This document shows, piece after piece, positions 997 to 4,489 of a DNA stretch of 20,749 nucleotides. The DNA is taken from IMG/VR virus record IMGVR_UViG_3300003322_000107, positions 1 to 20,749 of that record. The stretch is one strand, 5' to 3'. Each line of letters opens with the position of its first letter. Within the stretch, counting starts at the first letter, position 1. This stretch comes from a virus. The position numbers and the translations under genes were made by a program. Under the pieces are notes generated by a model. The model was given only the letters and a program-made list of their open reading frames with translations. It searched no databases and had not been told where the DNA came from.

Positions 997-1025
997 TTGA
1001 CAAATCGTAAATCGTGTGCTATAAT
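997..1025 (+). promoter_or_regulatory. Perfect consensus sigma70 promoter P2
   Basis: TTGACA (997-1002) and TATAAT (1020-1025) both match the consensus exactly, with a 17-base spacer and an extended -10 TGC (1017-1019). Transcription would begin near 1032. The first 550 bases downstream hold no credible gene but many complementary segments, so its main product appears to be a structured RNA, possibly reading through into the small genes at 1583 and 1721. It has the same design as P1 (17-base spacer and TGC before the -10), so both probably use the host's main sigma factor. Confidence 0.85.
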
Positions 1026-1031
1026 ATACTT

Positions 1032-1570
1032 ATAAAATAAATAATATCGATTACCGCTTAGGCTTAAATAGTAAGCGATCTCACACAAAATAACTTGAGA
1101 TGATCCTAAGTCTCCTTGATCTGGGTGCTATACAGATCTTAGAATAATAATATGGCCAGTCCCTCTGCATATCCTTGTACGGACTGGTTTTCTTGTTTTG
1201 CCTTATCAGCCAAAGAAGAAGATCTCAGTAATAGATGTTTGTCTAGGTTGTATCTAGACTGAAAGGGCCATTGATAAGGAACAATGTATCCTGCTCTGTC
1301 ATTGACATCAGGCATTCGAAACTGTACAAAGGTTCGCCCAGTACAGCTTGCCTTGCAACGAGGCACTATTAACCCCTCACGCCTCTTAACAATGCGCAAC
1401 TTAGGATCTAAAGTAAAAATACTGCTTTTGAGGTGTTTGCCGTACCAGCGTAGCTAAACGGTGTTAAGCGGAAAAATAGCTTTAGACGGAGAGCTGATAA
1501 ACTCTAGGGTATAACAGCGGTGAGGCGGTGGACCACGATAACCCTTATGGGGAAGTTCACCCACTTATTT
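1032..1570 (+). ncRNA. Candidate large structured noncoding RNA
   Basis: This stretch starts at the predicted start site of P2 and has no plausible protein gene. Hand-found helices: 1055-1060/1072-1077 and 1078-1083/1096-1101. A 10-bp helix 1102-1111/1399-1408 encloses hairpins at 1118-1123/1133-1138, 1156-1162/1181-1187, an 8-bp arm 1201-1208/1272-1279 containing 1241-1246/1254-1259, then 1282-1286/1300-1304, 1322-1327/1341-1346 (its loop has GG-UUCG-CC) and 1349-1353/1361-1365. Further 3' are 1490-1493/1502-1505 and 1527-1532/1556-1561. This nested multi-branch layout is what a large ornate RNA would show. Large phage-associated RNAs such as GOLLD and ROOL exist, but I cannot match it to any. 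The 3' end is uncertain: the 1156-1187 hairpin followed by TTTTCTTGTTTT could end a shorter RNA of about 160 nt. Confidence 0.6.
1156..1195 (+). terminator. Possible rho-independent terminator or RNA arm
   Basis: CCAGTCC (1156-1162) pairs perfectly with GGACTGG (1181-1187), followed by TTTTCTTGTTTT. The 18-nt loop is long for a terminator and the T-run is interrupted. It may terminate part of the P2 transcripts, or it may be one arm of the larger fold closed by 1102-1111/1399-1408. The sequence alone does not decide. Confidence 0.35.
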
Positions 1571-1582
1571 AGAGCTTAAGAT

Positions 1583-2583: not shown

Positions 2584-3051
2584 ATGCCTAGAGATACTGA
2601 CTACAAGGATAGTTATCCTCAAGAATTAATTGATATTATGAGTAAAGGAGCCAAAGGTGCTCCGGTATTTGCTCATTTTGGTATTTCAAGAAAAACGTTT
2701 TATAACTGGCTTAATAAGCACCCTGCTTTTAACGACGCTTATGAAAAAGGATGGGAAGCAGCTGAAAAGTGGTGGCATGATTTCGGCGTTCAAAAGATGC
2801 TTGAAGGAGACGAAGCCGGTTACAAATACTGGCAGTCGTTTGTAGCAAAGAACTTTGGATACGGGCGTAATGAGAATGCTCAAGCCGGTCCTCAGATTAA
2901 TATAGGAAATGTTAACGTTTTTCAAGGACAAAGTAAAGACGAGCTTATATCGTTTATTCAAGAAGGCCTTAAAGAACTTAATGTAATCGAAGCACAATTC
3001 CAGACTATTCCACAAGATATAGACCAAAAATTACTCGATGAACCTAAATAA
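2584..3051 (+). CDS. Terminase small subunit
   Basis: A 155-residue DNA-recognition subunit of the packaging motor; it binds the packaging site and directs the large subunit to start cutting. A helix-turn-helix is visible at about 25-45 (GAPVFAHFGISRKTFYNWLNKH), followed by the W-rich helix (WEAAEKWWHDFGVQKMLEG) and the GYKYWQSFVAKNFGY segment that recur in this family. The C-terminal part (100-155), variable in relatives, would contact the large subunit. Its end overlaps the start of the large subunit gene by 14 bases, the usual TerS-TerL order. Confidence 0.85.
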   Translation: MPRDTDYKDSYPQELIDIMSKGAKGAPVFAHFGISRKTFYNWLNKHPAFNDAYEKGWEAAEKWWHDFGVQKMLEGDEAGYKYWQSFVAKNFGYGRNENAQAGPQINIGNVNVFQGQSKDELISFIQEGLKELNVIEAQFQTIPQDIDQKLLDEPK

Positions 3052-4489
3052 TAAATCTGAAGCTGAGTTAATAAAAATAGCAGAAGCCGTAAAGCAGCTT
3101 ACAGAAAAGAAAAAATACAATTTCGCAGACTTTCTCTATCCTGACACTGGGCCTCTTAGAAGAGAGCTGTACCCTAAGCACATGGCCTTTCTAGAGGCAG
3201 GATCATACGCTGGCGAAAGAGCTTTTATTGCAGCTAACCGAGTAGGTAAAACGCTTACTGGTCTGTACGAAGTAGTAATGCATTGTACAGGAAATTATCC
3301 TCATTGGTGGAAAGGAAAGAAATTTAATAAACCAGTGGTATGCTGGGTGTGCGGCGACCGCGGCGAGATTATCCGTGACTCGATCCAAAGAGATTTGACT
3401 GGTGGATTTGAGTACGGAACAGGATTGATACCTAGAGATGCAATAGCGAAAGAGCCTTTAGCGCTACCAGGTATTGCTGGTGGCTATGGACAATACTTTA
3501 TTAAACATAAGTCTGGTGGTGTAAGCACCATTATTATTAAGACTTATCAATCAGGTAAAGAAGCTTTCGAAGCAGCTAAGATCGATGTCGTAATGCTCGA
3601 CGAAGAGTGTCCTTTAGACATCTATATTGAATGTCAAATGCGTACTCTGACGACTAACGGAATTGTATTCCTGACCTTCACCCCCGACTCTGGTTTGACA
3701 GACACTGTACTACATTTTCTTGACAAACCTAAAGCTGGAGAGAAAGAAAAATTTGTTGTTATGGTAGGTTGGGACGATGTTCCTCATATTACAAAACAAC
3801 AGCGTGAGGACATGATTGCTAAGATCCCTCCTCATATGATTGATACTAAAACAAAAGGTATTCCGTACAGAGGTAGAGGAGCTATCTATCCAATTCCAGA
3901 AGATGAAATTATTTTCGCTCCTGCTAAAGATTTTCCTCCTAAGCATTGGCCTAGAGCATACGGGTTTGACGTAGGTTGGAACAAGACTGCGGCTTTGTGG
4001 GGAGCATACGATCATTCTGACGATACTTGGTACATTTACTCTGAGCACTATAGCGGACAACAAGAACCAGCAGTGCACGCAAGTGCTGTAAGGTCGAGAG
4101 GAGCCTGGATTCCAGGTGTATGCGATCCTGCTGCTAGATCTGGTGGTAAAGGGAAAGACGGAGTAGCGTTTTTAGAAGCATACGCTAAAGAAGGATTGAA
4201 TCTTACTTTAGCTAATAATGCAGTAGAGCCAGGATTATTAGAAGTATATAACAGACTAAGTACTGGACGACTAAAGATTTGCTCGACTCTTCAAAACTTC
4301 TTTTACGAATATAGAATGTATAGAAGAGATGATAATGGAAAGCCAGTTAAAAAGAACGATCACTTGATGGACGCTCTTCGTTATTTAATCATGTCTGGAT
4401 TTGATGTGTTAGATACACATCCAGACGAAGATGATGATACTAGTCCTTTTAGTTTTGACTCAGACAGAAATTCAATTACAGGTTATTAA
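3038..4489 (+). CDS. Terminase large subunit (packaging ATPase/nuclease)
   Basis: 483 residues. The N-terminal ATPase pumps DNA into the head and the C-terminal RNase H-like nuclease cuts concatemers. Visible motifs: Walker A variant AANRVGKT (65-72), Walker B VVMLDEE (184-190), coupling motif FLTFTP (211-216), and nuclease acidic residues in GFDVGWNKTAA (Asp311), VCDPAA (Asp363) and DHLMDALRY (Asp445). The length is normal. The arrangement is that of the P22 gp2-like/Terminase_6 group, implying headful packaging by analogy. The start overlaps TerS by 14 bases; no later Met leaves the N-terminal adaptor region intact. Confidence 0.95.
   Translation: MNLNNKSEAELIKIAEAVKQLTEKKKYNFADFLYPDTGPLRRELYPKHMAFLEAGSYAGERAFIAANRVGKTLTGLYEVVMHCTGNYPHWWKGKKFNKPVVCWVCGDRGEIIRDSIQRDLTGGFEYGTGLIPRDAIAKEPLALPGIAGGYGQYFIKHKSGGVSTIIIKTYQSGKEAFEAAKIDVVMLDEECPLDIYIECQMRTLTTNGIVFLTFTPDSGLTDTVLHFLDKPKAGEKEKFVVMVGWDDVPHITKQQREDMIAKIPPHMIDTKTKGIPYRGRGAIYPIPEDEIIFAPAKDFPPKHWPRAYGFDVGWNKTAALWGAYDHSDDTWYIYSEHYSGQQEPAVHASAVRSRGAWIPGVCDPAARSGGKGKDGVAFLEAYAKEGLNLTLANNAVEPGLLEVYNRLSTGRLKICSTLQNFFYEYRMYRRDDNGKPVKKNDHLMDALRYLIMSGFDVLDTHPDEDDDTSPFSFDSDRNSITGY

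Follow-up and report, generated by a model that had tools for sequence, protein, structure and literature searches.

Gene order and features of the locus

The window, i.e., the whole stretch of DNA analyzed, is a 20.7-kb virus fragment from IMG/VR of 20,749 nt. Its features are arranged in the order holin, 84-aa gene, promoter, non-coding segment, 44-aa membrane peptide and zinc-ribbon-like gene, followed by a second non-coding segment, small genes, and the genes for the terminase small subunit (TerS), terminase large subunit (TerL), portal and major capsid. The holin-like lysis gene is at positions 244–675 on the + strand and matches the holin family phrog_3427 with an E value of 2.7e-6. The 84-aa gene (729–983) is directly before the promoter, and the gene for the 44-aa membrane peptide, which starts at 1583, ends the non-coding segment. 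TerS (2584–3051, + strand) matches phrog_309; TerL (3038–4489, + strand) matches PF03237 and PF17289 and served as query for relatives. No tRNA or tmRNA was found in the window. A near-perfect palindrome (positions 127–164; 39 bases, 87%) lies at the 5' non-coding end and is a possible terminator or protein site.

Three related contigs, L002, L005 and L085, were identified via TerL and the holin, and the holin-like gene has homologues in all three. No relatives were found in viral contigs by way of TerS or the 84-aa gene at 729. The small zinc-ribbon-like gene (1721–1924, + strand) has homologues at L005:1996, L002:3414 and L085:2062, and by inspection there is a promoter and a non-coding segment upstream of each. 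The second non-coding segment of the window, from the zinc-ribbon gene to the next small gene (1925–2150), has a folding z of -1.65; a conserved second non-coding segment is likewise present 3' of the zinc-ribbon gene in L005 and L085.

Promoter and non-coding segment

The promoter at positions 997–1025 (+ strand) was found by consensus scans and reads TTGACA-17-TATAAT with an extended -10 (TG); the start of transcription is predicted near 1032. The initial annotation called it the best promoter of the window, and it is in fact the sole 12/12 sigma-70 site there. It forms the 5' edge of a non-coding, putatively transcribed segment or long leader whose extent is taken as 1032–1582 (+ strand). 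That these approximately 550 bases hold no credible gene also agrees with our analysis, as + strand open reading frames of 60 aa or more are absent between 984 and 1720. The sole open reading frame in the segment is on the minus strand (1139–1399, 86 aa, TTG start). It has no match in Pfam or PHROGs, and a protein-coding reading of the segment, with this frame lacking a family, was rejected.

A terminator-like hairpin is found at positions 1154–1199 (+ strand), with a 9-bp stem and a long loop, followed by TTTTCTTGTTTT; the fold has a calculated energy of -16.8 kcal/mol. It may represent an early stop or an attenuator, but the terminator reading is only suggestive because the loop exceeds the limit of the terminator scan.

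These features could describe a long untranslated leader of a late lysis/packaging operon in the style of lambda pR', in which the hairpin at 1154–1199 acts together with antitermination and the abiF core described below is incidental or merely regulatory. The strong promoter stands immediately before small late genes and the terminase, the hairpin with its U-run is approximately 160 nt past the start, and the promoters seen in L005, L085 and L002 precede non-coding segments at the same place. However, such a leader leaves unexplained a match at E 4e-10 to a covarying protein-binding RNA motif, and we regard it as a rather improbable account, although a leader could itself carry the motif.

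Predicted helices and folding energy

The segment had been described as a large ornate RNA on the basis of its exact helices, and the helices themselves are as described: a 10-bp long-range helix (1102–1111 with 1399–1408, both + strand), an 8-bp arm (1201–1208/1272–1279) and a hairpin with a UUCG loop (1322–1346) are all exact. The 5' strand of the long-range helix at 1102–1111 is the exact complement of 1399–1408, and the 3' strand shares bases with the 3' part of the abiF motif. The energy model gives a pairing probability of approximately 1.0 for the long-range helix and 0.48 for the 8-bp arm.

The further claim that so many helices are unlikely by chance did not hold. Inverted repeats of 8, 9 and 10 bp number 5, 2 and 1, which is near chance: among dinucleotide-shuffled sequences, 21%, 20% and 9%, respectively, have at least as many. 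Folding of positions 1034–1575 is slightly better than that of shuffled controls but only slightly (z = -2.03; 2 shuffled sequences in 100 fold equally well), and local z-scores are modest, the best being -2.5 at 1090–1209. The exact helices are thus weak evidence for one large ornate RNA.

In the Rfam covariance scan no family, GOLLD and ROOL included, reaches its gathering threshold, and nothing for GOLLD or ROOL appears either at that threshold or at E values up to 5. Known large RNAs, riboswitches and introns were sought in Rfam at both gathering and relaxed settings, and the scans returned only a sub-threshold abiF match and one chance-level match. No alignable relative of the segment, from which covariation of the long-range helix might be judged, was found in the phage records, in the loci of the related contigs or in 2.8 Mb of fetched loci. 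The only direct DNA match is a 44-nt promoter-like stretch of Bacillus phage Goe8.

An abiF-type RNA motif at positions 1368–1409

The antitoxin RNA of AbiF (Abi_2), a protein thought to be ancestral to Cas13, is known mostly from beside the toxin gene. AbiF is a HEPN RNase toxin, and in Clostridioides difficile the RNA RCd22, which has two abiF motifs, binds it directly and neutralizes it in cis and in trans (PMC12373285).

The relaxed Rfam scan places an abiF RNA (RF03085) at positions 1377–1407 with 28.5 bits (E 0.023), which misses the gathering score of 37. The earlier reading of the sequence had overlooked this motif. A covariance model (R1) was built from 47 other phage copies, with the window excluded from training. 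It finds the motif at 1368–1409 on the + strand with 35.9 bits and an E value of 4e-10; the next match in the window has 7.8 bits. We regard an abiF-type motif of the RF03085 type, some 350 nt into the long non-coding segment, as established. The proposal of a structured phage RNA at this place is supported by way of this short motif; the long-range architecture is not what supports it.

The core consists of an XGC/GCN helix (1380–1382/1394–1396), inner pairs (1386–1387/1391–1392) around AAC, and a single-stranded CAA (1397–1399). RF03085, as represented by RCd22 and the PbAbiF ncRNA of Prevotellaceae, shares with it the core GCCUCUYAACRAUGCNCAA, the XGC/GCN helix, the UY/RA pairs around AAC and the single-stranded CAA after the core. 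In the window the core is exact, and every tested base is intact, including both covarying pairs. The differences from RF03085 are the score below the Rfam threshold, a poor local outer stem and the lack of an adjoining Abi_2 gene. RCd22, which lies before its toxin gene, contains two copies, whereas the window has one clear copy. A degenerate second core, GCCTTGCAACGAGGC, is at 1350–1364 (+ strand) with three mismatches to the core pattern. It is weak and only a possible copy, and model R1 does not find it.

The local outer stem of the window copy has 3 bp at best, with broken pairs in the alignment to the model. Stems of four pairs or fewer are also seen in 12 other viral copies, e.g., L101, L117 and L181. 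In the energy model the bases of the outer stem favor the long-range helix, which possibly replaces this stem. The core pairs have a probability of 0.17 and forcing them costs 2.2 kcal/mol, in a model that is ignorant of tertiary or protein-bound motifs. Judged from the sequence, the long-range helix could form at once with the core pairs, the sole conflict being at the final A of CAA (1399), and trimming the helix to 1102–1107/1403–1408 would leave the six-base 3' linker that normal copies have. When a long-range closing helix was sought in the other phage copies, a 10-bp case was found only in the window and in L114, and in L114 the local stem is intact.

Viral copies and covariation

Viral contigs were searched with the common denominator of the core, GCCTCTYAACRATGCNCAA. 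The pattern is present in at least 120 viral stretches. By our own estimate approximately 7 are expected, calculated as 2^-34 per position and strand over approximately 1.2e11 positions and assuming 20 kb per contig. An extended exact pattern of the window's own copy has no match in the viral contigs. The flanks of the viral copies form a hairpin, with an outer stem of freely variable sequence.

Among the 71 distinct copies listed, the window included, positions Y7 and R11 are exclusively C/G or T/A. The base before the core and N16 form A-T in 26 copies, C-G in 16, T-A in 14, G-C in 3 and G-T in 2, with other combinations in 10. In the 47 copies without the window, 87.7% of cells are paired and the covariation score is 0.554. 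Shuffled controls score 0.168, with none of 500 as high, and slid controls score at most 0.157. Pair 21–25 is UA in 26 of these copies and CG in 21, with no other combination. Judged from these alignments, the phage copies covary strongly and the covariation of the stem is under selection.

Among named phages, the motif is found in Mycobacterium cluster-J phages Redno2 and Dove, cyanophages S-SZBM1 and S-CREM1, Sulfurimonas phage SNW-1, Bacillus phage SBSphiJ and Enterococcus phage phiSHEF4. The cluster-J phages (of M. smegmatis) and SBSphiJ (of B. subtilis) are ordinary laboratory phages. SNW-1 and phiSHEF4 score 33.3 and 31.1 bits with RF03085, both below the gathering score of 37. The abiF sRNA of S-CREM1 has been reported as an Rfam match (PMC9964418), and single matches in phages, like abiF RNAs themselves, are thus already known. 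The sequence surrounding the S-CREM1 motif is unrelated to the window. S-SZBM1, a cyanophage of the same host strain, has its abiF motif inside a tRNA array.

Absence of the toxin gene and association with tRNA genes

Of 95 usable cellular copies, 56 are closely followed by an Abi_2 gene in the same orientation, versus none of 102 viral copies among the matches listed. This local count, for which a profile was built from PF07751 hits in motif-bearing genomes, is the fair comparison, since whole records and whole genomes differ in length; at that larger scale PF07751 is present in 18 of 25 motif-bearing cellular genomes versus 0 of 47 motif-bearing viral records. Abi_2 is also absent from the six complete genomes of motif-bearing phage isolates that were examined. 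The 20.7-kb record of the window has no PF07751 match, but it is a fragment, and such a gene may lie elsewhere in this phage.

Because its local outer stem is poor, the window motif could be decayed, and with no Abi_2 gene in the record the locus might be the remnant of an AbiF toxin-antitoxin locus in which the RNA motif persists without function. Against this, all tested core bases are intact, both covarying pairs included, and a perfect promoter is kept; moreover, phage copies as a rule stand without the toxin gene, and their stem covariation is under selection. A decayed remnant is, in our assessment, very improbable.

A tRNA gene is within approximately 600 nt of 70 of the 120 listed viral copies versus 2 of 122 cellular copies. 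Forty-six viral loci (e.g., L088, L100 and L136) have a common, related context: the abiF motif is flanked by a tRNA-3'-half-like element and a tRNA gene and is a regular member of tRNA arrays. A further arrangement is seen in L106:2816–2681 (- strand), where an abiF motif is followed within approximately 50 nt by a DUF3800-VIII RNA (RF03075, 52.7 bits).

The same position in related phages

L002, L005 and L085 have no similarity to the segment of the window and no significant R1 match. At the same position L005 and L085 have an RNA that is different from that of the window (L005:1675–1960 and L085:1790–2045). It is conserved from promoter to terminator, is roughly 240 nt in length and ends at the terminator. 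This RNA has 8 compensatory pairs, its conservation is visibly above that of the neighboring gene, and it has no Rfam match. Its core, GTCCTAAGAGCCGTGAGGCATTGA, is present as a pattern in a third contig, L208. As the positional counterparts hold a different RNA, the site may be described as an RNA locus with changing content. Beside the RNA locus these two close relatives have differing protease-type genes at one and the same position, weakly similar to ATP-dependent proteases in L005 (1049–1654) and trypsin-like in L085 (1135–1767), which hints at a variable accessory spot.

In Efquatroviruses, the gap between TerS and TerL in phiSHEF4 (L353:2467–3062) and in relatives L355–L360 contains a structured RNA of approximately 480 nt from promoter to terminator. 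In phiSHEF4 the abiF motif opens a promoter-driven module in this gap. The module is present in SSMH01, whereas precisely this module is missing from LOK1, Efa29212_2e, LY0322 and Alamo, in which the next promoter comes immediately after TerS. The gap RNA has modular gains and losses, and the remainder of the gap is a structured RNA in its own right, with 12 compensated pairs in six phages. Rfam gives only a sub-threshold abiF match in the TerS–TerL gap.

These RNAs bear on the proposal that the window encodes a stand-alone large ornate RNA of the GOLLD or ROOL kind and of a new class. In this view the 10-bp helix would close off a multi-branched fold that functions as an RNA particle, with the abiF motif among its arms. 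GOLLD and ROOL are large phage RNAs often found by tRNA islands (PMC12286853), and the window RNA resembles them in phage location and large size. A segment of approximately 550 nt, a minimum free energy fold with the 10-bp helix around several arms at a probability near 1.0, the conserved RNA structure at the corresponding site of L005 and L085, and the Efquatrovirus RNA between TerS and TerL are all consistent with it. However, the z of the segment is only -2.0, its inverted repeats occur at chance numbers, Rfam gathering thresholds are not reached and no relative of the segment was found in the collections searched. It differs from GOLLD and ROOL in having no Rfam match, no tRNA in the window and no demonstrated covarying large architecture. 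We consider a large RNA of this kind unlikely.

A possible RNA antitoxin mimic

The reading that we favor, with modest confidence, is that the phage makes a transcript carrying an AbiF antitoxin motif without the toxin, and that this transcript is a mimic that neutralizes the AbiF of the host. The occurrence of this signature in many phages that lack the toxin suggests a use in disarming the AbiF defense. We infer transcription, AbiF binding, neutralization and a benefit to the phage as follows. The promoter at 997 would give rise either to a non-coding RNA or to the long 5' leader of a lysis/packaging operon, in both cases with the motif at 1368–1409. During infection this RNA would bind the host AbiF protein in trans, and with the RNase kept off abortive infection would fail. 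Several findings count against the mimic: the Rfam score is sub-threshold, the local outer stem has only 3 bp, the core pairs are improbable in the energy model, the hairpin at 1154–1199 might stop the transcript before the motif, and the window has a single clear copy rather than the two of RCd22.

Such a mimic would work like the pseudo-ToxI RNA through which phage PhiTE evades ToxIN (PMC3475682). The mechanism would be shared, with a phage non-coding RNA imitating a bacterial RNA antitoxin, and here the antitoxin RNA is found in phages without the toxin (0 of 102 copies among the matches listed). The RNA and toxin families are different, ToxI is a tandem repeat array whereas the window has one clear copy, and the effect has been shown for PhiTE but is inferred for the window RNA. 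The lactococcal phage sk1, which according to a review has an AbiF-protecting region, was also considered and set aside; it has no match to the core pattern and its best R1 match has an E value of 0.2. Protection by sk1, if RNA-based, is therefore not via the abiF motif.

A broader and more tentative reading, which we think doubtful as a whole, joins these observations. Phages may keep swappable islands of structured, promoter-driven RNAs next to terminase and lysis genes or in tRNA arrays, with each module a mimic against a different RNA-regulated defense toxin, and the window RNA may be a composite whose motif is closed by the long-range helix in place of a local stem. This reading is based on the gain and loss of the Efquatrovirus module, the different RNA in L005 and L085, and the pair of motifs in L106.

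In the passages of the S-CREM1 paper that concern the abiF sRNA, no mimic or decoy role is proposed (PMC9964418). The view of phage abiF RNAs as mimics lacking the toxin was not found in the literature covered, and its priority is uncertain.

Collateral cleavage of anticodons by Cas13a has been discussed (PMC12373285). A toxin lineage that damages tRNA would fit the tRNA association of the motif, as the mimic and spare tRNAs would then serve one purpose, although this is speculation. If the antitoxin RNA is widely present in phages by itself, it would represent a common RNA-based counter-defense, a counterpart of the anti-CRISPRs that is directed at the Cas13 lineage. It would also give a new reason for the presence of other small RNAs within phage tRNA arrays.
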